NCBI RefSeq assembly: GCF_026015625.1
Contig: NZ_JAPDVG010000001.1
Span: 1,798,001-1,862,000, forward strand
Source: Segatella copri
Lineage (GTDB): Bacteria; Bacteroidota; Bacteroidia; Bacteroidales; Bacteroidaceae
Direction of reading: 5' to 3'
DNA: 64,000 nucleotides
The notes below the pieces were generated by a model. The model was given only the letters and a program-made list of their open reading frames with translations, made no database searches and was not told where the DNA came from. Positions 7,301 to 37,709 of this stretch are shown here, one piece after another (positions within the stretch are counted from its first letter, which is position 1; each line of letters begins with the position of its first letter). Both the position numbers and the translations under genes were made by a program.

Positions 7301-9352
7301 TTACTGCTCGGCAGCCTCATCTGGTTCCATAGGCCAGTATGGATTCTGGTACAATGGAGAGTCTGCATAGGTCTTATGGTCAGGAGCTGTAAGCATAAAC
7401 TGACGCAAAGGCATTGGCTGTAGGTACTGAGCCATAGACCAGGTCATACCATTGTAAAGCATATTGGTAGAAACAATCTGGTAAGGACGGAAATACTCAG
7501 TCAACTTACGAGAAGATACTGTAGCTGTAACAGAACCATCATCTACCAACTGGTCTTCTGTATACCATTTTTCCATTGGAGTATTCCAAAGATGGAAGCC
7601 CTCAAGCTGATAAGGCTGTTTCATCAACTGATCGAGTGAACGCCAGCGAATCAAATCCATCCAACGAAGACCTTCAGCCATCAACTCTGTACGACGTTCA
7701 CGACGAATACTATACAAAGTAGGATCAGTCAATGCCTTGCCAGCAGAAAATGCGCCCCAATCATATTGTGTACCAGAACCATCGGTATAACCCTTTAACT
7801 CCTGTGCCATATCTGTGGCAGCAATAGTTGTCTGAGGGTCAGCAGCCTCACCTGTAAAGCCAGCAGCCTCACGGATTGCCTTCCAATATGAAATGCTCTT
7901 CGCATTTAAATTGTGGTCGAGCATATATTGAGCTTCAATATAGTTGAGCAAAGCCTCTGTGGCACGGAAGGTGATAGATGCAGTATAACCAGCCTGGTTT
8001 TCGGCCAGGTTCTGATTAAACGTACCACCCTTTCGAATAGCATAACCAGTAGTATAAGTTACGTCAAATGAGCGAGTAAACACTTGAGGAACTGGCTCTA
8101 TTGGTCGAACCTGCTCAGCAGCAATATTATTATCCTCACCCTGAAGAACGTTCTTCTGACCAGGACGCTTCAAGAAGATAAACAAACGTGGGTCACGATT
8201 GCGAACTACTGCATGAGTCGTTGTATCTTCATATACATATCCATCATGGTGTGCATAAGTAGGCTTACCATCCTTCATCAGAAAGGCATCAATCATACCA
8301 CGGGTAAAACCAGTATAGGTATTACCACGGTTTACAGCTACCTCAATGTTATCAGTCACACCTTTACCCTTATTATAGGCCTTCCAGAGAAGAACCTCAG
8401 GATAGGCAGACATATCGGTATTACCAAACTTATAGAAATAAGGATTGGTATCAGATAAAGACTGAGGTACGATACCTGTATTCTTATCCAATTTGCCTAC
8501 ATAAGCATCACCTACAATGGCAGCCTCATCAACCGCCTTCTGGAAGAAATACTTAGCTTCAGCCTCAACGCTACCTGTAGGATACTGATAATTGGCATTA
8601 TAGTCCTTTGACTTTCCTGGCCATCCCTCACCATTAGGAACGAATGGAGTACCAGCAAAATTGGTCAACCAAGAACCCTCAAACAAGGCTACACGGGATG
8701 CAAACAGATGAGCAACAGCAGGAGAGATACGTGTGGTTGCTTCCCAACCATCAGGCTCCATATAGGTTACAGCAGAATCCAGGTCGGCAAGAATAAAACG
8801 AGCAACCTCGTTGCGAGGACTACGCTTATTAGCTGCTACAAGGATAGCCTCATTTTCAGGCATGGCCTCTGTCACAATAGGTAAGTCACCAAAACTCTTG
8901 TACAAGCTGAAATAAGCATAGGCACGGAAGAAGTGTAACTCGCCGATATATTGACGAATCTTATTTTCATTACCCGCAATCAATCCATTCTCATAGTTAG
9001 ACTGTGCTATATTCAACTGATAGTTGATATCACGAATATTGTTCCAGCTCCATGAAGAGTTGTCGTTACTAGTCTTCCAACTACCTTTCTTATACTTAGA
9101 ATCGCCATTAGAACCGGTCTGATTATCTGTACCATTATCGTATGCGAATGTACCATAGCCTGCACCACTATGATATGGCAATACAGTCTGATAAAAAGCA
9201 TTAGCTACAGCTTGAAGCTGAGTAGCATCCTTGTAATAGTCGGTAGGAGTAATATCTGTAAGAGGCTCTTGCTTCAGGAAATCATTACAAGAAGCCATCA
9301 ACATACCGCATGCCAACAAAGGAAGTACCTTTAAAGATATATTGAATTTCAT
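7301..9352 (-). CDS. SusD-like outer-membrane glycan-binding lipoprotein
   Basis: The protein has 683 residues. A lipoprotein signal peptide with lipobox LMAS-Cys (Cys near residue 22) is followed by the RagB/SusD domain: NDFLKQEPLTDITPTDYY at the start, then the TPR-like helices (IGELHFFRAYAYFSLYKSFG) and a C-terminal segment with RRERRTELMAEGLRWMDLIRW. SusD caps the SusC porin and delivers oligosaccharides. It lies 13 bases downstream of susC in the same operon, the standard arrangement. Confidence 0.96.
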   Translation of the reverse strand: MKFNISLKVLPLLACGMLMASCNDFLKQEPLTDITPTDYYKDATQLQAVANAFYQTVLPYHSGAGYGTFAYDNGTDNQTGSNGDSKYKKGSWKTSNDNSSWSWNNIRDINYQLNIAQSNYENGLIAGNENKIRQYIGELHFFRAYAYFSLYKSFGDLPIVTEAMPENEAILVAANKRSPRNEVARFILADLDSAVTYMEPDGWEATTRISPAVAHLFASRVALFEGSWLTNFAGTPFVPNGEGWPGKSKDYNANYQYPTGSVEAEAKYFFQKAVDEAAIVGDAYVGKLDKNTGIVPQSLSDTNPYFYKFGNTDMSAYPEVLLWKAYNKGKGVTDNIEVAVNRGNTYTGFTRGMIDAFLMKDGKPTYAHHDGYVYEDTTTHAVVRNRDPRLFIFLKRPGQKNVLQGEDNNIAAEQVRPIEPVPQVFTRSFDVTYTTGYAIRKGGTFNQNLAENQAGYTASITFRATEALLNYIEAQYMLDHNLNAKSISYWKAIREAAGFTGEAADPQTTIAATDMAQELKGYTDGSGTQYDWGAFSAGKALTDPTLYSIRRERRTELMAEGLRWMDLIRWRSLDQLMKQPYQLEGFHLWNTPMEKWYTEDQLVDDGSVTATVSSRKLTEYFRPYQIVSTNMLYNGMTWSMAQYLQPMPLRQFMLTAPDHKTYADSPLYQNPYWPMEPDEAAEQ

Positions 9353-9365
9353 ATCATTCTAATAT

Positions 9366-12300
9366 TTATAATGTTAAACTTAAACCAAAAGAGAAGGTTG
9401 TGTTCAATGGATATCCATTGCCATACCATGTACCAATGGTCTCTGGGTCATACTGCTTGCGGAGAGATGTTCCTGTCCAGAGATTCTCACCCGAGAAGTA
9501 AACACGAAGTTTCTCAATAGAAATCTTACGTGTCAAATCCTGTGGCAAGGTATAACCAATCTGAAGGTTCTTCAAACGAATGTAAGAAGCATCCTGCAGA
9601 TACTTTGTCTGAATCTGCTCATTCTTGGCGCTATAGGCTGCACGTGGCAAGTAAGCGTCCTTGTTTGGCTCCTGGAAGCCATTGACAACAGACCAAGAGT
9701 TCTCGTCACGATAATAGTCTTGCAAACCATCCAGGCAGACCTGATACCAACGACCATATTCGAAAGTACCAAAGAAGTAACGTGTACTAGCCCAATACTC
9801 ACGTTTCATGACTCCCTGGAAGAAACAACGTACATCGAAGCCTTTCCAAGCAGCATTCAAGTCGATACCGAAGAGATAACGTGGTGTGGAATTACCTATC
9901 TTCTTAAGATCTCCATGATCTTCCAACGTATTGGCACCCGGGGAAATCTTACCATCATTATTGAGGTCACGATACATGATATCACCAGCACCCCACTTGT
10001 TATTGTCAATAGTACTCTGATCAACCTTTGCTATATGAGCATCCATCTCTTCTTGGCTCTTAGCTATACCGATGGTCTCATAACCGTAGATATCACCAAT
10101 ACGCTGTCCCTCAATATAGTTACCCAATGAATGAGAAGGGTTATTAGGATACCTTGTGATAGTAGCATAGGCATCAGAGAGATTGAAGTTGATTCCATAC
10201 TGTAAACCATTAGACAAGCGGTCGTTCCAACCGATAGTCAACTCCCAACCATTGGTACGCAAGTCGGTATTGTTAGTAACAGGTACAGCTGTACCCAAGA
10301 TGCTTGGAAGCTCAGGGGCATTACCTATCATATTTTTTGTCTTACGCACATACCAGTCAAATGATCCATGCAAGCGATCCTTCAAAAATGCAAAGTCAAG
10401 ACCGACATTAAAACTCTGGATGGTTTCCCATGTCAAATTCTGAGAAACCAGGCCTGGTGCCCAAGCTGTCATCGGTTTCAAACCATCCTGCAGCCATGTA
10501 CCATTGTTGGCATATACACCAATCGTCTGATAAGTCTGGTAAGTACCAACATTCTGGTTACCCAAGTTACCATAAGATACACGAAGCTTCAACTGACCAA
10601 TCCAATCATTGATTGGCTGCATGAAGTTCTCTTGTGCAATATTCCAACCTGCAGATACTGATGGGAAGAACTTCCACTGATTTCCCGGGCGGAATCTTGA
10701 AGAACCATCATATCGGCCATTAACCTCAAAGAGATACTTGCCCTGATAATCATAATTCAAACGACCAAAGAAACCACAAGTTGTCCAACGGCTCATGTTG
10801 CCAGACACAGATGGATCCACAGGATTACCATAAGCATCAATACCAGTTGTACCATCAATTTGAGGCTTATTACCTACGATAAGACCAGCTCTATCTGCAT
10901 ATTTGTACTTCATACGCTCATCCTCAGACTGGAAACCAGCCATAATATGGAAGTTATGCTTCTTCTGCAAATTGAACAAATACTCAGAATAGAGTTGGAA
11001 ATTTGTATAATTTTCCTTATAGTAATCTTCACCTACATAGGTAAAATTATTCTGGTCGTAAGCCTCACCATTCAGATTATACAGATAAGTATGCTGCATA
11101 TCTGTATGACTCTCATTATGGGATGTACGATAGTTGAAGATAGCATGGGTAACCCAATTCTTGATTGGTTCGATGTCCAAACCTACCTGATGATTATACT
11201 CATCATTCTGATAACGATAAGTACCACCATTCGTCATGGTGTTTACCATCTCATTATAGAGATTGCCATTTCTATCATACAAAGGAACACATGGCCACTG
11301 TCCACCAAGATATTCATATACACCAGAACCCAAAGACTGAGGACGATGATAATCCTTGCGAACAAAACGGAGAGAGTAGTTAAACTTCATCCAATTCGTC
11401 CACTGTGAAGAAATCTTGGCAGTAGCAGTATATCGGCTACTACCTTCATCAGCAACCTTGATCAAACCATCCTGACCTAAATAGCCAAATGAAGCATAGT
11501 AGTTGAGTTTGTCATCACCACCGGTTGCACTTACATTGTGCTCCTGAGAGAATGTATGTTTTTTGTATATTGTATCATAGAAATCGGTAGAAGCATAACC
11601 ATCGGTAAATCCACTCAACCAATAGCCATTAGCATCCGCATCCAAAGAATAAATCAAATTGCCATTTTTATCCTTACGGGTACCAGCATTAACATATTCG
11701 CCCTCTATCCAATCCTTCATACGTTGAACATGGTCTGGTGTAAAAATCTGACCACCACCAATATTCGTATTCGCATCATTCTGCATACAAGCAAAATCGA
11801 CAGAATTCATAGTATGCTTCATACGAATTGGGGTACTGAAGCGGAAATTATTGTTGTAGTTTATACTTACCTTGTCACGCTTACCACCACTCTTGGTAGT
11901 AATCAAGATAACACCGAAAGGTGCACGAGAACCATAAATAGATGATGCAGCTGCATCCTTCAATACAGATACGCTGGCAATATCCTGAGGATTGATGGTA
12001 TTGATATCACCCTCCATACCATCGATCAAGACCAACGGACTACCACTGGAACCCTGTCCGATTGTAGTTGTACCACGTACATTCAAGCTTGGAGTATCAT
12101 CCAAACTACCTGCAGCCTGGGTAATCTGTAAACCTGCCACCATACCCTGCAGAGCCTGGGTGGCATTGCTTACAGGACGGCTATCCAATTCCTCACCCGA
12201 TACTGCGGTCACCGCACCCGTAAGGTTTACCTTTTTCTGGGTACCGAAACCTACGACCACCACTTCATTCAGCTTGGTATCGTTAGATTTCAAAACCACT

Positions 12301-29171: not shown

Positions 29172-30290
29172 ATGAATGAGACAACAAAACAGAACAACGG
29201 ATTGTTGCCTAATGGCTATGACCTATGGCGCAAAGACATTGAGGCATTGATTGACACAGCAAAACTGCAAACAGCAATCAATGTAAATCAAGGTATGTTG
29301 TCGCTGTACTGGAGTATTGGCAAGCAAATTCTTGACAAACAGGAGAAACTGGGTTGGGGAAAGCAGATCATTTCCCAATTATCAAAAGATTTAAGCTTAT
29401 GCTACCCTGGTGACAGAGGATACTCAGAGCGCAATCTACGAAATATGAAAAGATTTGCCTCAGAATACCCAGACTTTCCTTTTTTACAAGTGCCACTTGC
29501 AAAATTTAAGGAATCAACAATTTGGCAAGTGGCACTTGCCAAATTAGAAAAAGCCAACAAAGAATTTGTGCAAGTGCCACTTGCACAAATTACCTGGTAT
29601 CACCATATTTCGCTTCTTTCAAAAGTGAAAGACGATACGGAGCGCGCCTATTATATTACAGAAACGGCACAAAATGGCTGGAGCCGTGATGTCATGCTCA
29701 TGCAGATTGACAATGGTTACATCTATGCAAAAGGGCATGCTATCAACAACTTTGAACAGACATTACCTCCACCACAATCTGATTTAGCAAAGTACATTTT
29801 CAAGGATCCGTATAATTTTAGTTTCTTGGGGACGGTTGCCCTACAGAATGAACTCGATATAGAGAAGTCCTTGACTAGTAAGATAACAGACTTTCTACTT
29901 GAGATGGGGCGTGGCTTTGCATATATAGGTAGGCAATATCACATTACCGTTGATGGTGATGATTACTACATAGACTTGTTGATGTACCATCTAAAGCTCC
30001 ATTGCTACGTAGTTGTAGAATTGAAAGCCGTAGAGTTTAAGCCAGAATTTGTCAGCAAACTCAACTTCTACATCTCAGCTGTAGATGATTCTGTCAAGTC
30101 GCCAGAAGACAAGCCAACTATCGGTCTTCTCCTCTGCCGTAGTAAAAGTGACAAGAAAGCAGAATTCTCACTTCGTGGAATTACCCAACCAATGGGCATT
30201 GCCCAATATGAGACAGAGAAACTGTTTGCTGATGTTGCTTCTGCACTGCCACAAATAGAAGAGTTAGAAAGAAATATTGATAACGTATAA
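29172..30290 (+). CDS. DUF1016 / YhcG-type PD-(D/E)XK nuclease between hsdM and hsdS
   Basis: The protein has 372 residues from the ATG at 29172; an upstream TTG at 29154 would overlap hsdM and is less likely. The N-terminal DUF1016_N domain (LIDTAKLQTAINVNQGMLSLYWSIGKQI; GYSERNLRNMKRFASEYP) is followed by the nuclease domain with Asp in YYIDLLMYH and Glu-x-Lys in CYVVVELKAVEFKPEF. These proteins are often found inside type I restriction operons; their role there is not settled. Between the two domains lies a stretch with three copies of a palindromic repeat (29487-29584), coding QVPLAK-like motifs, where other family members I know have none or a variable insert. Confidence 0.9.
   Translation: MNETTKQNNGLLPNGYDLWRKDIEALIDTAKLQTAINVNQGMLSLYWSIGKQILDKQEKLGWGKQIISQLSKDLSLCYPGDRGYSERNLRNMKRFASEYPDFPFLQVPLAKFKESTIWQVALAKLEKANKEFVQVPLAQITWYHHISLLSKVKDDTERAYYITETAQNGWSRDVMLMQIDNGYIYAKGHAINNFEQTLPPPQSDLAKYIFKDPYNFSFLGTVALQNELDIEKSLTSKITDFLLEMGRGFAYIGRQYHITVDGDDYYIDLLMYHLKLHCYVVVELKAVEFKPEFVSKLNFYISAVDDSVKSPEDKPTIGLLLCRSKSDKKAEFSLRGITQPMGIAQYETEKLFADVASALPQIEELERNIDNV
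29487..29584 (+). repeat. Three in-frame palindromic repeats inside the DUF1016 gene
   Basis: The 13-base palindrome CAAGTG-(C/G)-CACTTG occurs at 29487, 29526 and 29571, spaced by 39 and 45 bases, so each copy is read in the same frame and codes QVPLA or QVALA. The copies also share the following A-rich bases (AAATT). Confidence 0.85.
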
Positions 30291-30300
30291 CAAGAATATA

Positions 30301-30900
30301 ATGGAATATAAAACATACAAACTTGGCACCTGCTTTTCTTTAATAGAAAATGGCGCTATCATCAAACAAAGAAAAGAAGCCAAAGGTTTCCCTATAACTC
30401 GCATAGAAACCTTATCTCATGGCAAATTTAATCGTGACAAGTTAGGCCATGCTGACATTTTCGACACAACACCTTACAAACGATATATCTTAGAAGACAA
30501 GGACTTGATTATGTCACACATCAATAGCCGTGCCTTTCTTGGAAGAACCGTGCTTTATAGAAAGAAAGGAAATGAACAAATTATTCATGGAATGAATGTC
30601 TTGAGGATTAAGACGAATGAACAATTTTTAGATCCTGTTTTTGCATCTTATTTATTCAAAACATCACATTTCAAAAAAGCAATTGATAGCATTCGTAAAG
30701 ATGCCATCAACCAGTCTAGTATAAACATATTTGACATATGCAACATACAAATAAGCCTTCCTTCAATTACAGAGCAGAGAAAAATTTCTCATGCCCTGCA
30801 ACTGATTGATAAAAAAATTGAAACTAATCATCTGATAAATGATAATTTACCGTTGCCTGACCATTCATTAAGAGAGGCAAGAGTTCGTCGCGCTGCTTAG
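30301..30900 (+). CDS. hsdS: Type I specificity subunit, first half only (TRD1), C-terminus replaced by inversion
   Basis: The frame has 199 residues. It holds one target recognition domain and the start of the central conserved helix (EQRKISHALQLIDKKIETNHLINDNL). At the 15-bp site (30835-30849) it leaves hsdS sequence and reads antisense through the 3' end of the facing hsdS, giving the unrelated tail PLPDHSLREARVRRAA and a stop. A full HsdS has two TRDs and about 370-450 residues, so this copy is in an off or truncated state. Inverting the segment 30835-31492 would join it to a complete second half in frame. A lone half-subunit can sometimes dimerise and give a palindromic specificity, so some function is possible. 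It begins 10 bases after the DUF1016 gene. Confidence 0.85.
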   Translation: MEYKTYKLGTCFSLIENGAIIKQRKEAKGFPITRIETLSHGKFNRDKLGHADIFDTTPYKRYILEDKDLIMSHINSRAFLGRTVLYRKKGNEQIIHGMNVLRIKTNEQFLDPVFASYLFKTSHFKKAIDSIRKDAINQSSINIFDICNIQISLPSITEQRKISHALQLIDKKIETNHLINDNLPLPDHSLREARVRRAA

Positions 30901-31927
30901 TAAGTTTTAATATCTCTTGTTGGTTAGAATATATTAAATCTTGTAATTCATTAACTATATGACAAAACTGATTGATATGTTTTTCCGACATAGGAAAGTA
31001 CAAATGTTTTAATGCCTCATGTGTTATCAGAGGTTGGGATGACCCTCCTTTATTTTTTGACAAGTTGTATAATTTCAATGAATAAAATAAGAAAGGTTGC
31101 CAATCATCATTTTTAGAACATATAGATATCGCATTGTCACTCACCCAACAAGGAACTTTACTATAATGTATGCTTCCACAATTTGCACCAACACGACCAA
31201 TTATTATGCAAGCTGGATAATTGCTTATCTCTACCATTTTAACTATACCATTACCACCATATGCAGGAACCAATCCTTCATTTTGTGGCATTGTTTGCCC
31301 ATTACCTATGGTAAACAAATCAGTATAGTTTGATGCCATCCACTCTTTCGGTATCTCACGTTTCAACTTATCATTCCACACCATAGCTCCACCACTCGAT
31401 TTATACGGCTTGCCCTCCTCATTAGGAAAGTCAAACTGCACGAACCAGTAGTCGTAGAGCTGCTTTGCCATCGCCTCTAAATTATCATTTATCTGACAAT
31501 TGAGTTTAATTTTGGCATCAAGTTTTTGAAGAACAGAAGCTATACGCTTTTGTTCTTCGATTTTTGGCAACATAACTTTTATGCCATAGTAACTATCAAA
31601 AGTCATGCTTGGGACACCAGTACCAGAATCCAAGCGGCTCAAATCCAATAGTTTCAAGTATCGATACAAGAAATATGGATTAGCTAGTTCTTCATTCACA
31701 ACGGTATAATATAATGTATCAACTGTCCAAAAAGGAACATCGCAATACTGAATATTATCCAAAGACCCTTTACGAGGTAACAATATACTTGGTTTATCAT
31801 AAAGATACTCGTTTACAAAGCGCATAACTCCCCCACTACCAAATACAGGATATTCCCCATCTGGCAGTTCCTTATGATCTTTACCATTCTTTATCTCTAA
31901 TAATTGAGACAACTTATATTCTTTCAT
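30824..31927 (-). CDS. hsdS: Type I specificity subunit, complete, on the opposite strand
   Basis: The protein has 367 residues with two target recognition domains. The first is MKEYKLSQLLEIKNGKDH (to about 130), followed by the central helix with EEQKRIASVLQKLDAKIKLN, the site-coded INDNL at about 146-150, LEAMAKQLYDYWFVQF, then the second TRD and a C-terminal helix (LTKQRDELLPLLMNGQATVNYHLSDD). It converges with the plus-strand half-gene; their 3' ends overlap over the inversion site. A -7-like TTATCTTTG at about 31944-31953 (minus strand) suggests its own promoter, so it may supply the active specificity in the present orientation. Confidence 0.9.
   Translation of the reverse strand: MKEYKLSQLLEIKNGKDHKELPDGEYPVFGSGGVMRFVNEYLYDKPSILLPRKGSLDNIQYCDVPFWTVDTLYYTVVNEELANPYFLYRYLKLLDLSRLDSGTGVPSMTFDSYYGIKVMLPKIEEQKRIASVLQKLDAKIKLNCQINDNLEAMAKQLYDYWFVQFDFPNEEGKPYKSSGGAMVWNDKLKREIPKEWMASNYTDLFTIGNGQTMPQNEGLVPAYGGNGIVKMVEISNYPACIIIGRVGANCGSIHYSKVPCWVSDNAISICSKNDDWQPFLFYSLKLYNLSKNKGGSSQPLITHEALKHLYFPMSEKHINQFCHIVNELQDLIYSNQQEILKLTKQRDELLPLLMNGQATVNYHLSDD
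30835..30849 (+). repeat. hsdS inversion site 1 (forward)
   Basis: ATAAATGATAATTTA. Read on the plus strand it codes INDNL in the middle of the half-gene; read on the minus strand it codes NYHL at the end of the facing hsdS. Identical core at the three other sites. Confidence 0.85.
31478..31492 (-). repeat. hsdS inversion site 2 (reverse)
   Basis: Reverse complement of site 1. It lies in the middle of the minus-strand hsdS, exactly at the junction of the first and second halves. Sites 1 and 2 bracket the second-half segment A (about 630 bases). Confidence 0.85.
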
Positions 31928-31990
31928 ATTCTGCTACAATTTAGATTACAAAGATAATCAAAATCAAGCAGGATATCGATTTTCTAAACC

Positions 31991-32983
31991 TTAATTAAGA
32001 TATTTTCGATGTGCCATCTTCACATTTGCCTGATTTACCATTGCATAATGCAAGGTCGTGTCTATTTTTACATGTCCAAGTAACTTTTGTACTTGCTCTA
32101 TTGGCATACCCTTATCTATGGCCATGGTGGCCAATGTTCTTCTAAACTTGTGGGGATGAACCTTGCTAAGAGAAGCTCGCTTTCCTAAATTGCGCAAGCG
32201 AACTTCTACGCCACTGATCGTAAGACGAGTATGCGGCTTGGCAAGACTTACAAACAAAGCAGGATTGTCATCAGTTCGCTCATCTAAGTATTTCTTTAGG
32301 TGAATCTTAGTTCGAGCATTGAAATAAACTTCTCGCTCTTTGTTTCCTTTACCAAACACAACACATTGACGTTCGTGAAAATCAATATCCTCACGATTCA
32401 TCTTTACCAACTCACCAACACGCATACCTGTACTGGCAAGCAAATCTATCATAGCGATGTCACGCAATTCTTGGCAACTATCACGTAGTATTTCCATACT
32501 TTCATCTGAAAGCACCTCCTTTACCAAAGTATCAGTACGAACCTTATGTATTCTTCGCACAGGACTTTTCACGATATAGTCCTCATCCTCCAACCATGAG
32601 AAGAAGCTGGAAAATATGCGTCGCAAATTATCGATCGTCACCTTGCTAAGGTGATGATTTTCTTGTTGTTCAGCAAGATAGCATCGAATATCATTAGTCG
32701 TTATTTCCTGCACTTTTTTGCTTACTGCCGCCATCAACTTCTCTATAGAAGACTTATAATAGTGAATCGTCTTGTCAGAGCATCCCTCTATTTTCTTTGC
32801 AGAAATGAACACATCAAGCAACTCCGCATTCTCCTTTTCACGGTTTTCACCATCAGACAACTTCAGGCAAACATCAAAATTCTCCAAAGCCACTTCCATT
32901 GTGTCATGCAATAGCTTCAAGTGCTCCTCAGACAATACACTACGCATACCATCTAATACATTTTTTATCAATTCTTTCTTCAT
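31991..32983 (-). CDS. Tyrosine recombinase, probable invertase of the hsdS locus
   Basis: The protein has 330 residues. An N-terminal SAM-like core-binding domain (about 60-160: DVFISAKKIEGCSDKTIHYYKSS) is followed by the catalytic domain with Arg in TGMRVGELVKM (near 184), HxxR in HPHKFRRTLAT (near 278), His in LLGHVKID and the nucleophile Tyr in TLHYAMVN (near 314). All catalytic residues of the XerC/D-like family are present. It lies inside the array of inversion sites, between the complete hsdS and the spare half, as in other phase-variable type I systems where the recombinase swaps hsdS segments. Confidence 0.93.
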   Translation of the reverse strand: MKKELIKNVLDGMRSVLSEEHLKLLHDTMEVALENFDVCLKLSDGENREKENAELLDVFISAKKIEGCSDKTIHYYKSSIEKLMAAVSKKVQEITTNDIRCYLAEQQENHHLSKVTIDNLRRIFSSFFSWLEDEDYIVKSPVRRIHKVRTDTLVKEVLSDESMEILRDSCQELRDIAMIDLLASTGMRVGELVKMNREDIDFHERQCVVFGKGNKEREVYFNARTKIHLKKYLDERTDDNPALFVSLAKPHTRLTISGVEVRLRNLGKRASLSKVHPHKFRRTLATMAIDKGMPIEQVQKLLGHVKIDTTLHYAMVNQANVKMAHRKYLN

Positions 32984-33036
32984 AATTTTATTTCTTGTTT
33001 CTACATATAATATAAGGTAATAGACGGATTATTGCA

Positions 33037-33051
33037 ATAAATGATAATTTA
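33037..33051 (+). repeat. hsdS inversion site 3 (forward)
   Basis: Same 15 bases as site 1, at the 3' end of cassette B. The homology to the site 1 flank continues for about 50 more bases (the shared HsdS C-terminal helix). Confidence 0.85.
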
Positions 33052-33763
33052 CCGTTGCCTGACCATTCATCAGGAGAGGCAAGAGTTCGTCTCGCTGCTT
33101 AGTTAGAGCTGCAATTTCTTTTGTAAGAGCAAGCTGTTTGTCTGCTATTCCATTTTGTAATTCTATCCATTGCACATAGATGTTTTTTGCACCAATAGTA
33201 AGAATTGGAAACTTGCAGAGATCATCCCTTGAAACTTCTTTGAAAGTCGTACCTGTTCCTAATTGTTCTATTTGTTTGATATGGTGGTTTATGTAGTAGT
33301 ATAAATATATAGAATCACTTATACTCTTAGGAATAAAGCTCTTGAAACCTTGATTTGTACAGACTTCATGCTTTGCAATAGAAACTAGACCGATTGGAGC
33401 ACGACTTGACATAAGTACAGAATTTGTTGGCAGTATACTTGTACTACAAGAATCAAAACCTTGCTTTGTTATATTGCGTTCACCTTGATACACAAACTTT
33501 GATTGTTGGTCAGACAAATCCTTTTGAGTTATCCAAACTATATCACCACCATAATTTGCTTCGACGGCTGTTGAAGGTGTCGCACCATTCTTTATTTCTG
33601 CAAAATCGATTAGATTTTCAACTTCCCAACCAATAGGAATTTCTCTTTTGAGGCGTTCATTATAGGTCATAGCTCCGCCACTTGATTTATACGGCTTGCC
33701 ATCCTCATTCGGGAAGTCAAACTGTACAAACCAATAGTCGTAGAGTTGCTTTGCCATCGCCTC

Positions 33764-33778
33764 TAAATTATCATTTAT
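33764..33778 (-). repeat. hsdS inversion site 4 (reverse)
   Basis: Reverse complement of site 1, at the 5' end of cassette B. It is the right-hand end of the recombining locus. Confidence 0.85.
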
Positions 33779-33856
33779 GAATTAGAAAGATTAAGCCAGA
33801 TACTTTAAAGAAAATTAGGGTTCCACAATTTGCTTCTTTTTAAATATTTTTCTTTC

Positions 33857-33928
33857 AAGAATTGCCATATTGCCATATCAGCTAGTAATCTCTCTGATTA
33901 CAAAGCTGTTAGGTGTATGGCAATTCTT
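33857..33928. repeat. Left palindromic block of the VirE/BT4734 unit
   Basis: AAGAATTGCCAT (33857-33868) and ATGGCAATTCTT (33917-33928) form a perfect 12-bp inverted repeat with a 48-base spacer. The first arm continues as the tandem ATTGCCAT-ATTGCCAT (to 33876), which is repeated inverted on the right side of the gene at 36224. Confidence 0.8.
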
Positions 33929-34079
33929 TATTTTTAGGGGTTATCTGCCATATTCGGGCGTTTTTGAGGCATTTTTTGAGAAAAACACAGAAAGTATTGA
34001 GCAAAAAAGCATTTTTTCGGTTCAATGCTTGGGGATTTCAATCTTTTTTCGTAACTTCGCCATCGATGCGGAAGAAATT

Positions 34080-34172
34080 ACGTCCCGACGTAGCATCTGA
34101 TACATCGCGACGTAACAACAACTGCGTCACGACGCAGCATCAGATACGTCGCGACGCAGTTTCAGATACATC
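34080..34172. repeat. GC-rich direct repeats with internal palindromes upstream of the VirE-like gene
   Basis: Two 36-base units (34081-34116 and 34125-34160) agree at 29 of 36 positions, and a third partial unit (CAGATACATC) follows. Each unit carries CGTC-n-CGACG and TCGCGACG palindromes. The GC content stands out against the AT-rich surroundings. This, with the palindromic block to the left, fills the 514-base gap 33779-34292; no gene is convincing there. Confidence 0.75.
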
Positions 34173-34292
34173 CTGGCTTAGCAAGTAATGCTTTCCGAAG
34201 TCCAAGTGAGCCTCTTTTGAACCCCCAAGTAAGCCTACTCAAACATTACGTAAGCCTCACTCGAAAAAGAAATAACTTTAATAACAGGACAG

Positions 34293-36122
34293 ATGAAAAT
34301 AACAGTCATCAGAACCAACCGGCAACACCAGCTTTGCGTTACCAACAGAAGTATCGGACACCTTTTGGAGCGTATGCTCAAAGATGATTCCAAGTTTACC
34401 ATCCAGAAATTCAGAGATATGGTTCCTTCCATGAATTTCGGTTACGATGGGTATAAAGACATGCCCACCTGGCACCGGGTATACCCTGCCGCCGAGTTTC
34501 AGAAAGATGAGAACGGGAATCTCAGGATGAAGGCATTCAACGGCCTCTTGCTCCTATCGTTCAGGAATATACTGAAACCTGAAGACGTCCAGCTCGTGAA
34601 GAAACAAGCTGCCTTTCTCCCCTCCACCCTCATTGCCGTGACCGGAGCCGATGGCAGAAGCGTGGAAATACTGGTGAAATTCTCCGATGAAAAGGGTGAA
34701 CTGCCTACAGATGAAGAACATGCCGACCGACTCTACCAAAGTGCATACCGACACATCCTGCCCATCTACCAGTCTGTCATCCATGCCGAGATAGCCAGCC
34801 AAAAGCCTTCGATAAGAAGCTATTTCCTCCTTACGCTCGATACCCAACCCTATTATAATCCTCAGGCTGTCGCCTTGAAAGTAGACGAGAAACTGATGCT
34901 TCAGGAACCAACCCCATCCATACCTGAGGCTAAAAGCGACCCGACTGACAAGAAAGAAAAAGGCATGAAAGGCTCGAAAGAGAACATCGAGAAGATGATG
35001 AAATATCTGAACGAGAAGTATGACCTGAGATACAACATGGTGATGAAATATACCGAATATGTACCGAAGGACAAGGAATGGATTGGATTTCAAGCCGTGG
35101 AACCGAGAGTACAGAAGAGTCTGACACTAGAAGTGCAACTGGCAGGTATCAACGTCAGCATCAAGGACGTTAGAAATTTCCTGGAATCCAATTTCATCAA
35201 GAACTATAATCCCGTAGAGGAATTTCTGTTCATCTGTTATGACAACTGGGACGGCAAGGACCATATACGTGCCTTGGCACGTACCGTGCCTACCAACAAC
35301 CCGCACTGGGAAGACTGGTTCTACACCTGGTTTCTAGCCATGGTGGAGCAATGGCACAACCGCACCGGCAGACAGTATGGCAACAGCGTGGCTCCCCTGC
35401 TCATATCCAAACAGGGCTACAACAAGAGTACTTTCTGCCGCCGTCTGATTCCACCCCAGCTGCAATGGGGCTACACCGATAATCTGATTCTCTCTGAGAA
35501 GAGACAGGTGTTGCAGGCTATGAGCCAGTGCCTACTTATCAATCTGGATGAATTCAACCAGATTTCAGCCAAGGTACAACAGGGATTCCTGAAAAATCTC
35601 ATCCAGTTGCCAAACGTGAAATACAAGCCACCCTATGGCAGCCATGTACAGGAGTTCCCCCGCACCGCCTCCTTCATCGCCACAAGCAATATGGACGACA
35701 TCCTGACCGATCCTTCCGGCAACCGCCGATTCATCGGTATCGAACTGACGGGTCCTATTGATGTAAGCGTGCGCCCCAACTATCAGCAACTCTTTGCCCA
35801 AGCAGAAAAGGCAATCTGGAATGGAGAAAAGACCTATTTTGATGCAGAACAGACGGCTCTCATCATGGAGAACAACAGGCGATACCAGCAAATAGATCCA
35901 GTCATGCAATGCTTCAGCGAGAGTTTTACGCCAACAGAAGACGAAAATGAGGGTACTTTCATGACTGCCGCCGCCATTTTTAGCGAGTTAAAGGCGAAAT
36001 ATGGGGCATCATTGGAAGCAAAAAGCCTTCTTTCGTTCGGTCGATGCCTGAAGAACATCGATGGACTAAAGAGGAAAAGAACGATGAAAGGTACTGAGTA
36101 TCTGGTTATTAGGCGAAAATAG
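34293..36122 (+). CDS. BT4734/VirE N-terminal + VapE-type P-loop protein (primase-helicase-like)
   Basis: The protein has 609 residues. The N-terminal third (KFTIQKFRDMVPSMNFGYDGYKDMPTWHRVYPAAEF...LLLLSFRNI) matches the BT4734/BF3469-VirE N-terminal domain, here thought to be primase-like. The middle (about 240-520) is a VapE/VirE-type P-loop ATPase: Walker A-like LLISKQGYNKSTFCRRLIP and Walker B-like CLLINLDEFNQ, with SNMDDILTDPSGNRRFIGIEL as sensor. The C-terminal part (EGTFMTAAAIFSELKAKYG...KRKRTMKGTEYLV) is DUF3874-like and probably binds DNA. In SaPI-type satellites VapE proteins act in replication. Here no capsid, integrase or replication partner is adjacent. The gene is bracketed by inverted repeats. 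Confidence 0.85.
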   Translation: MKITVIRTNRQHQLCVTNRSIGHLLERMLKDDSKFTIQKFRDMVPSMNFGYDGYKDMPTWHRVYPAAEFQKDENGNLRMKAFNGLLLLSFRNILKPEDVQLVKKQAAFLPSTLIAVTGADGRSVEILVKFSDEKGELPTDEEHADRLYQSAYRHILPIYQSVIHAEIASQKPSIRSYFLLTLDTQPYYNPQAVALKVDEKLMLQEPTPSIPEAKSDPTDKKEKGMKGSKENIEKMMKYLNEKYDLRYNMVMKYTEYVPKDKEWIGFQAVEPRVQKSLTLEVQLAGINVSIKDVRNFLESNFIKNYNPVEEFLFICYDNWDGKDHIRALARTVPTNNPHWEDWFYTWFLAMVEQWHNRTGRQYGNSVAPLLISKQGYNKSTFCRRLIPPQLQWGYTDNLILSEKRQVLQAMSQCLLINLDEFNQISAKVQQGFLKNLIQLPNVKYKPPYGSHVQEFPRTASFIATSNMDDILTDPSGNRRFIGIELTGPIDVSVRPNYQQLFAQAEKAIWNGEKTYFDAEQTALIMENNRRYQQIDPVMQCFSESFTPTEDENEGTFMTAAAIFSELKAKYGASLEAKSLLSFGRCLKNIDGLKRKRTMKGTEYLVIRRK

Positions 36123-36147
36123 CATTAAATTCTCACTATAACAATAT

Positions 36148-36182
36148 ATGGCAATTCCCGGCGCTTTTCCGAGAATTGCCAT
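36148..36182. repeat. Right palindromic block of the VirE/BT4734 unit
   Basis: ATGGCAATTC (36148-36157) and GAATTGCCAT (36173-36182) form a 10-bp stem with a 15-base loop, 25 bases after the gene. It uses the same word as the left block and may also serve as terminator, although no T-run follows. Confidence 0.75.
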
Positions 36183-36223
36183 ACGTACTTTTACGCTGAG
36201 TATCAACCATTTGCACATACAAC

Positions 36224-36240
36224 ATGGCAATATGGCAATT
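36224..36240. repeat. Right 17-bp terminal inverted repeat (ATGGCAAT tandem)
   Basis: ATGGCAATATGGCAATT is the exact reverse complement of 33860-33876. The two copies enclose the VirE-like gene and its repeats in 2,381 bases. It sits 24 bases from the 3' end of the PepSY gene. Confidence 0.85.
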
Positions 36241-36263
36241 AAAACAACGCATTCAAACTTTTT

Positions 36264-37709
36264 TTATTTTTTCTTCACCAGTCTAATGACATATCCAGAC
36301 CAAAGGCACCATACGGCAAGTATTCCCATTACGAAGATAAATATATATGTAGCAATACTACCTATGAAGATTCTACCGCTATGAGCCTCCAGAGCCACAT
36401 TCCATAATGACATGGGCAGTTGGTTCATATAAGCGGGTTGTGGCGCAAAGTCGGTTCCTTCATTATACTCAGCAATGACAGGCGTATCAGAGAAATCCTG
36501 GCTCATACCTGCTATCGCTTTTTTTCCGAATGGTGCGCCAGCGTTCTTTAAAGCAGCTTTCCCGGTAGAATAATCAACGGTTGTCCCCTTTACTCTATCC
36601 CAAACAAAGAGACCACTAAACGAACCGCAATACCATTTACCATCTTTGCTTTGCTGAAGGACATTCAATCCCATAACACTGACTGGTGGAGTATTGGAGA
36701 TGGACTCCAACTTTCCGGTCTGGAAATTCACGGAAAAGAAACCATCCGAGGTTGACAAGAGCCAGTCACCGAACTTTTCATCATAACGTACCACACGGAG
36801 TTTGTCATTCCAAGGGTTCTTACTATGAAGCGTCGTCCCAGGAATAGACGGCATCTTGTTCAACACCAAGGCTATCATCACAGGTGGACGAAGGCACCAA
36901 CCTGTCAGGGCTATCAACAAAGTAAGCATGATGGTATATCGGCCTATTTTGTCATGCCATTGTAGCGAAAAGCGAAGCAACCTCTTCTGTTTAGGCTTTA
37001 ACCAGAAGATAAGACCTGAGATGCAGAGCAACACCAGGATGATGGCAATGCCATCTACGATGAGTTTACCAATGCTGCCAAACAACTCTCCACTGTGAAG
37101 CAGCCATATCGTACGAAAGACTGTAACTTTCCCATCATACTCCTTTGGCATAGGCAATTCTATCCGGTGGAAGTTCTGATAAGGTGGCAAGGAAACATAA
37201 GCATAGGAGCGGCTGAGAACCAAAAGCGTATCTCCATGAGCAGAAATGTCGCTCAACTTCTCTTCCAGCTCTGTTGGAAGAGTTACGCTTTTCCATATTT
37301 TGTGACTCCCCAACCGGTAAAGTGCAAATGGAGATACCGACCAGACAGAACCATCATCCGTTCTGATAACATTTCTTATCTGTCGGCAGTCTGCTCCTGC
37401 CGGAATCCCCTTATTAAAGTCCCTGAATGTGGATGCTGTAGAATCCGTTTGCCAGATTCCCCCGTTTCCATACAGCAATATGGCATCATCCAAAGCAAGC
37501 GTTCCTCTCAGCAACCCGCCATTCCAATTCTTGAATTCATAGCGACTTGGCAGATATTTCCTGCTCACGTCCACATCTTTGATAAGCGAACGGTGGTTGA
37601 GCAAAATACCCGACAAGCAGAACATCAGCATGAAAAAGCTCATACCGATGCCTAACCATTTATGTTGTTTTCTCCAAGTTATTTTCTTATTTAGCATATT
37701 CATAATCAT
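36264..37709 (-). CDS. PepSY-type inner-membrane protein
   Basis: The protein has about 480 residues. Its first membrane helix (KWLGIGMSFFMLMFCLSGILLNHR) has the PepSY_TM signature, and further helices lie near 200-235 (IGKLIVDGIAIILVLLCISGLIFWLKPKQKR), 255-275 (IGRYTIMLTLLIALTGWCLRPP) and the C-terminus (IATYIFIFVMGILAVWCLWSGYVIRLV). The long outer loops have WSVSP- and WLLSTSDGFFSV-type repeats. Family members are often iron-regulated and some act as reductases for ferric siderophores; which substrate applies here is unknown. Three nearby ATGs (37709, 37703, 37697) are possible; 37697 (MLNKKITWRK) fits best. It has its own promoter. Confidence 0.82.
   Translation of the reverse strand: MIMNMLNKKITWRKQHKWLGIGMSFFMLMFCLSGILLNHRSLIKDVDVSRKYLPSRYEFKNWNGGLLRGTLALDDAILLYGNGGIWQTDSTASTFRDFNKGIPAGADCRQIRNVIRTDDGSVWSVSPFALYRLGSHKIWKSVTLPTELEEKLSDISAHGDTLLVLSRSYAYVSLPPYQNFHRIELPMPKEYDGKVTVFRTIWLLHSGELFGSIGKLIVDGIAIILVLLCISGLIFWLKPKQKRLLRFSLQWHDKIGRYTIMLTLLIALTGWCLRPPVMIALVLNKMPSIPGTTLHSKNPWNDKLRVVRYDEKFGDWLLSTSDGFFSVNFQTGKLESISNTPPVSVMGLNVLQQSKDGKWYCGSFSGLFVWDRVKGTTVDYSTGKAALKNAGAPFGKKAIAGMSQDFSDTPVIAEYNEGTDFAPQPAYMNQLPMSLWNVALEAHSGRIFIGSIATYIFIFVMGILAVWCLWSGYVIRLVKKK

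Follow-up and report, generated by a model that had tools for sequence, protein, structure and literature searches.

In iteron plasmid replicons an initiator gene lies beside iterons. The Rep helicase of Staphylococcus aureus pathogenicity islands (SaPIs) has been described as recognising iterons through its C-terminal domain, with the origin directly 3′ of rep (PMC7581432), and the account of phage-inducible chromosomal islands (PICIs) in PMC6092414 gives their origins as always consisting of two iteron sets around an AT-rich region. In REPtrons and TIRtrons, RAYT or TIRYT genes are framed by repetitive extragenic palindromes (REPs) or terminal inverted repeats (TIRs) (PMC3733652), and VirE/archaeo-eukaryotic primase (AEP) proteins are known from the literature chiefly for a role in the replication of mobile elements (PMC5862659). 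Here we analysed a 64-kb stretch of Segatella copri DNA (contig NZ_JAPDVG010000001.1, positions 1,798,001 to 1,862,000; hereafter the window, whose numbering is used throughout), in which a gene for an initiator-helicase-like protein is framed by inverted arrays of the iteron ATGGCAAT. The copies of this unit in the window and in the nearest genome compared with it (G001) bracket it at about 33844–36263, the borders being approximate.

We consider it probable, at roughly 60%, that the unit belongs, in reduced form, to a family of compact TIR elements, mostly from Prevotellaceae, which would be replicated by their own helicase and return to the chromosome by a step that the host or a factor in trans provides. 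Comparison of related sequences supports this reading: left and right iterons are matched within elements and differ between them, near-identical units lie between unrelated flanks, and a sister type has dispersed gene-less end pairs, some of them present in one genome and missing from the same place in another. The arrangement would then sit between the REPtron/TIRtron and PICI kinds as a new variant. With the rep–ori modules of SaPIs and PICIs (PriRep1, SaPI5 Rep) it shares the helicase fold and origin-like iteron sets directly 3′ of rep, but here an inverted origin-like end stands at both ends, only one or two genes are enclosed, there are no int, repressor or packaging genes, and gene-less derivatives are dispersed in sister types. 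Like REPtrons and TIRtrons it has a framed gene, and in sister types the framing repeats are dispersed without the gene as well (seen for the L122 and L033 types, not for the window type); unlike them it encodes an AAA+ initiator-type helicase instead of a Y1 tyrosine transposase, and its repeats are iteron arrays. Iteron plasmid replicons differ again, since the unit is chromosomal, has two inverted origin-like ends and shows no plasmid functions. A literature search, covering neither most subscription journals nor any preprints, turned up no description of such units, and within the same limits DUF6078 and DUF3874 were named in no paper and BT4734 in two.

The helicase gene and its iterons

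The gene (34293–36122, plus strand) encodes 609 aa with BT4734_N (aa 62–188), VapE-like (318–532) and DUF3874 (536–605) regions; DUF5906 is also among its Pfam domains. The predicted product joins a degenerate primase domain of BT4734 type to an AAA+ helicase of VapE type, and its C-terminal domain resembles a winged helix. Among solved structures the best match is PriRep1, a helicase solved on double-stranded DNA, which by sequence and fold only places it with the replication initiator helicases of VapE/PriRep type. The initial annotation had called the protein primase-helicase-like; the helicase part of that description is upheld by the PriRep1 match, while the primase label is doubtful because AEP motif I has lost most of its acidic residues. 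This motif (hhhDhD/E in active primases) reads LLLLSFRN in the window protein, and in 95 aligned proteins longer than 560 aa its first and second acidic positions hold D or E in 7 and 34 cases, respectively. The family thus has the same domains as BT4734-like AEP primases (PF08800 with PF05272), and is set apart from them by the missing motif I acids and by the framing iterons. The only PADLOC match was a PrimPol profile of the CRISPR-associated kind, covering the AEP domain, and NCBIfam matched neither the window protein nor two DUF6078 proteins.

There are 14 copies of the iteron ATGGCAAT in the window, whereas 100 shuffles gave a mean of 3.63 and a maximum of 8. Seven copies flank the gene (33861, 33869, 33917, 36148, 36175, 36224 and 36232), and for these seven in 676 bp of noncoding flank, a flank picked after the repeats were known, the Poisson P is ~2 × 10⁻¹⁴. 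The counted positions bear out what had been reported from inspection, seven copies in short noncoding flanks and 17-bp inverted repeats around the gene, the latter (33860–33876 and 36224–36240) being 100% complementary. Perfect hairpins had also been claimed on both sides; the left one is a perfect 13 bp (33857–33869/33916–33928), whereas the right one matches at 93% over 15 bp (36147–36161/36169–36183) and is perfect in its inner part only.

These repeats form two ends of similar design. The left end (LE, 33857–33930) consists of two tandem iterons on the minus strand (33861–33876), a ~40-bp spacer and one iteron on the plus strand (33917–33924), a layout kept in the G001 copy (L118). The right end (RE, 36146–36240) has iterons at 36148–36155 (plus) and 36175–36182 (minus), a ~40-bp spacer and two tandem iterons at 36224–36239 (plus), so that two iteron sets and a spacer follow the gene, resembling the layout of a PICI origin. 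Between LE and RE the helicase gene is the only open reading frame (ORF) with a Pfam domain, a 91-aa ORF at 33913 having none, and no integrase, repressor, interference or packaging gene was found there by Pfam. The window protein likewise has neither a Y1/HUH tyrosine transposase nor a DDE insertion-sequence transposase domain in Pfam, in agreement with the earlier statement that the unit has no transposase or integrase of its own. Short palindromic repeats of the ACGTCGCGACG type lie between LE and the gene start (34081–34180) and are possibly regulatory; palindromic repeats upstream of the helicase start were also noted by eye in L005, L049, L111 and L117, with letters differing per element. 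Rfam gave nothing at gathering scores across 33700–36400.

Relatives, recurrence and gene-less end pairs

Relatives were drawn from GTDB genomes (the best 80 of 147 confirmed) and from 60 relative genomes searched, 31 of which had a match; chosen stretches were added to these. To each locus we assigned a flank score, the best inverted match between the 900 bp upstream and the 250 bp downstream, with swapped partners as control. Of 118 loci with a gene call, 108 homologous loci, mostly from Prevotellaceae, were kept; the others had an upstream flank shorter than 500 bp or a downstream flank shorter than 180 bp, or were duplicates (L001, L002 and L006). Own pairs scored 26.3 on average and swapped pairs 10.2; the swapped 99th percentile, 20.0, was reached by 45 of 108 own pairs and 125 of 11,556 swapped ones, the repeat count being lowered by gene calls that look truncated (e.g. 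L012, L024). The own pair ranked first in 42 loci and within the first three in 59. That homologues elsewhere might lack such flanks had been one of the objections foreseen in the initial annotation, and these 45 loci with strong inverted repeats of their own speak against it.

Within each element the left and right iterons agree, but from one element to the next their letters change: ATGGCAAT in the window, GTGGCAGC in L062, GTGATATT in L098, GTGACATT in L119, ATGGTAGC in L083 and GTGAAGAGT in L122. In good cases the TIR spans ~90–115 bp (104 bp in the L119 unit of genome G025) and comprises two iterons followed by a ~40-bp spacer, a further set of iterons in opposite orientation and an outer tip that often begins C-T/C-A-C by eye. 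The usual second gene, ahead of the helicase, encodes a four-cysteine DUF6078 protein, whose fold had no match in the PDB at E ≤ 0.001. A candidate core motif in the spacer was found in 11 (LE) and 12 (RE) of 45 elements, where shuffling gave a mean of 6.6, a signal too weak to be of use. Among phage and plasmid records, 375 and 77, respectively, contain relatives; a search of IMG/VR by peptide patterns matched eight stretches and confirmed none. As side observations, CGCGCG alternating tracts lie at or just outside one border of L005, L051, L065, L093 and L098 (both borders in L098), and ~110 bp of REP-like sequence stands at the right border of L116 (3840–3950), relative to L031 and L032.

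Several of these units recur between unrelated surroundings. The unit L117 in the G001 chromosome and its counterpart in MT836291.1 (L359) are 96.4% identical over 3,286 bp, a match that spans from outside the left iterons to outside the right ones, with unrelated flanks on both sides. L095 and L110 come from two species-level Prevotella genomes and agree at 94.5% of positions over 2,786 bp, while their flanks have no more than a 61-bp piece in common; L039/L047 (88%) and L053/L057 (90%) follow the same pattern. L359 and the Bacteroides record L360 had weak left/right scores (12 and 10) in the stretch scored; L359 nonetheless has iterons and aligns to L117, and none are visible in L360. We did not count L044/L046 or L031/L032/L116 as evidence of mobility, their flanks being partly the same site, nor L065/L081, which have parts of the left flank in common. 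L111–L114 were also set aside: these four copies of a VapE gene region in the complete genome G025 are 94–96% alike and have weak ~54-bp inverted ends, and three share extra upstream sequence beyond the unit, so that they may belong to some larger element. For L098, a search for the empty site in 299 genomes of the genus gave partial flank matches in 28.

End pairs without the gene are best counted for the L122 type. The L122 unit in G001 has a 421-aa VapE-type gene without the BT4734 domain, framed by GTGAAGAGT iterons, and in this complete genome its ends occur at 13 places, namely the gene unit, nine gene-less pairs (168–540 bp) and three single ends (24 of 37 rows were grouped; the other 13 were nested or opposite-strand matches within the same places). 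In all nine gene-less pairs the two ends are oriented to each other as they are around the gene, which favours mobile derivatives over ordinary dispersed repeats. The L122 ends alone match many places in G101 and G102 (S. copri strains Indica and iA622, with 40 of ~100 candidates scored in each) and none in G025. Ends of the closer L033 type (60% identity) match many places in G104, G102, G101 and G001, counted as ungrouped matches.

Twenty stretches from G101 and G102 were compared by BLAST. Genomes differ in the presence of such ends. An end pair in G102 (L257) stands where G101 (L290) has a plain terminator; a place filled in G102 (L258) has, in G101 (L293), ~10 bases between two aligned pieces, the second of only 33 bp; a place filled in G101, G102 and G001 (L241, L254, L295) is unfilled in G103 (L296); and one filled in G102 (L256) is unfilled in G001 (L291). 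The gene unit L117 is absent in G101 (L361), where the left flank is 99.7% identical over 879 bp and identity ends 62 bp before the unit. L241, L257 and L258 lie just 3′ of genes, and L256 seemingly lies between two divergent gene starts (by eye). Near one tip of L241–L245, L251, L252, L257 and L258 we also noted by eye a ~60-bp palindromic repeat of the TGCCTGGC..TTGCCC..GGGCAA..GCCAGGCA type.

Proposed replication and rival explanations

Each element would carry a VapE/PriRep1-type initiator helicase, usually with a DUF6078 gene ahead, and have at each border a copy of an origin-like end with private iterons, the two copies being inverted. The helicase would recognise its own iterons, probably via the C-terminal winged helix, then open the ends and replicate the unit, the paired origin-like ends delimiting what is copied. 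Binding of its own ends and the start of replication there are suggested because RE has the layout and place of a PICI origin and LE is its mirror image. Recombination, by the host or by a factor acting in trans, may then put copies back into the chromosome, the weakest part of the scheme. More tentatively, and with the odds somewhat against it, the family could represent a class of prokaryotic transposable element in which a replication-initiator helicase takes the part of a transposase in spreading, its inverted, element-specific origin-like ends serving as termini and the gene-less pairs as miniature inverted-repeat transposable elements (MITEs). This raises the question of whether a replication initiator alone can mobilise chromosomal DNA. 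BT4734-type genes are multi-copy, with 2–11 PF08800 matches in each of eight genomes searched, and if such genes frame themselves with private origin-like ends and seed repeats, one kind of intergenic repeat found in abundant gut bacteria would be explained; the many iteron/protein pairs would also form a ready panel for a DNA-recognition code.

Several results weigh against the explanation favoured here. No transposase or nuclease domain was found in domain searches, and no strong left/right repeat was found in the examined stretch of 63 of the 108 loci. The window's own pair scored 17.0, below the cut-off of 20 and second to its pairing with the right flank of L118 (19.0), a locus that shares this iteron. 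L122, the best-counted dispersed type, is a distant relative with ~30% identity to the window protein and a shorter gene, and the draft genome G102 has gene-less copies with no L122-type gene seen among the candidates scored there. One of the mobility pairs depends on L359, an unverified gut virome contig labelled Bacteriophage sp. The differences between genomes resolved neither a clean empty junction nor a target duplication, and none of the latter can be stated because neighbouring bases or other repeats also differ; no target-site duplication was seen by eye at the approximate borders of L005, L064, L065, L071, L081 and L119, and no excision product of the unit was found. The window-type repeat has no further full-length copy in G001, G101, G102 or G103: beyond the unit's own ends in G001, these genomes gave weak short matches only. 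The initial annotation had set repeats lying where the gene is absent against its own proposal, and such repeats do exist for sister types, the window's own type showing no further full-length copy in these four genomes. Its proposal of a self-contained mobile or replication unit is partly supported, by the family's own inverted repeats, the recurrence between unrelated flanks and the helicase likeness; no clean empty site was found for the window copy. That copy is a reduced member of the family, with no DUF6078 gene, a short TIR and no dispersed copies in the four genomes.

The strongest rival is mobilisation of the ends in trans by a transposase or recombinase elsewhere, as for MITEs and REPINs, with the helicase as cargo or only regulating or replicating the unit. 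The abundance of gene-less end pairs, the recurrent tips outside the iterons (CYAC..., by eye) and the lack of an encoded strand-transfer enzyme fit this explanation, repeat families with tyrosine transposases have been described (PMC3733652), and G001 and G101 have Y1 transposases above the cut-off. However, the iteron letters match on the two sides of a gene and change from element to element, as a cognate protein would lead one to expect, and in a scan for the Y1 class Y1_Tnp passed in two of five genomes and was absent from G025, which holds the L119 unit; we regard mobilisation in trans as rather unlikely.

A leftover rep plus ori module of a PICI, satellite or prophage that shed its other genes would account for the VapE/PriRep fold, for the resemblance of RE to a PICI origin, in which a spacer downstream of rep has an iteron set on either side (PMC6092414), and for the relatives in phage and plasmid records. 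Yet units of one or two genes with paired inverted ends recur across sites and species with no satellite gene between them, and decay would give neither the same boundaries nor an inverted second origin; the recurring fixed boundaries make this origin improbable. That the iterons are operators and terminators through which the protein controls its own, immobile gene, as the hairpin-forming repeats on both sides and the L257 pair in place of a plain terminator might suggest, is very improbable given 94–96% identical units between unrelated flanks and gene-less pairs dispersed over the genome.

The insertion site and its neighbours

LE lies directly 3′ of the tail of a left-neighbour gene (33805–33843, plus strand; stop codon 33841–33843), which aligns to L118 from 33805 and was read by eye. 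The gene is longer in G001, where the 96% identical copy of the unit has its left end after the stop codon, and by our own reading the window retains the gene tail only. On the right, a PepSY-domain gene (36264–37709, minus strand) has its stop codon 24 bp from the last iteron, and RE stands beside this gene in both genomes. Because LE follows the same gene and RE adjoins PepSY, the two copies are taken to occupy one site. No empty site for the window copy was found in G101 or G102, whose PepSY genes are 68–69% alike and lie, in two stretches, in other surroundings. L118 also has a second RE, with a 357-aa ORF, presumably RhuM-like, between the two (7748–9640) and the outer RE at the PepSY gene.

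To the left of the unit, at 0.9 kb, a tyrosine recombinase (31991–32983) lies beside hsdS genes. Type I restriction specificity genes occur in both orientations across 30277–33757 with this recombinase among them, an arrangement that we take to resemble invertible hsdS loci.
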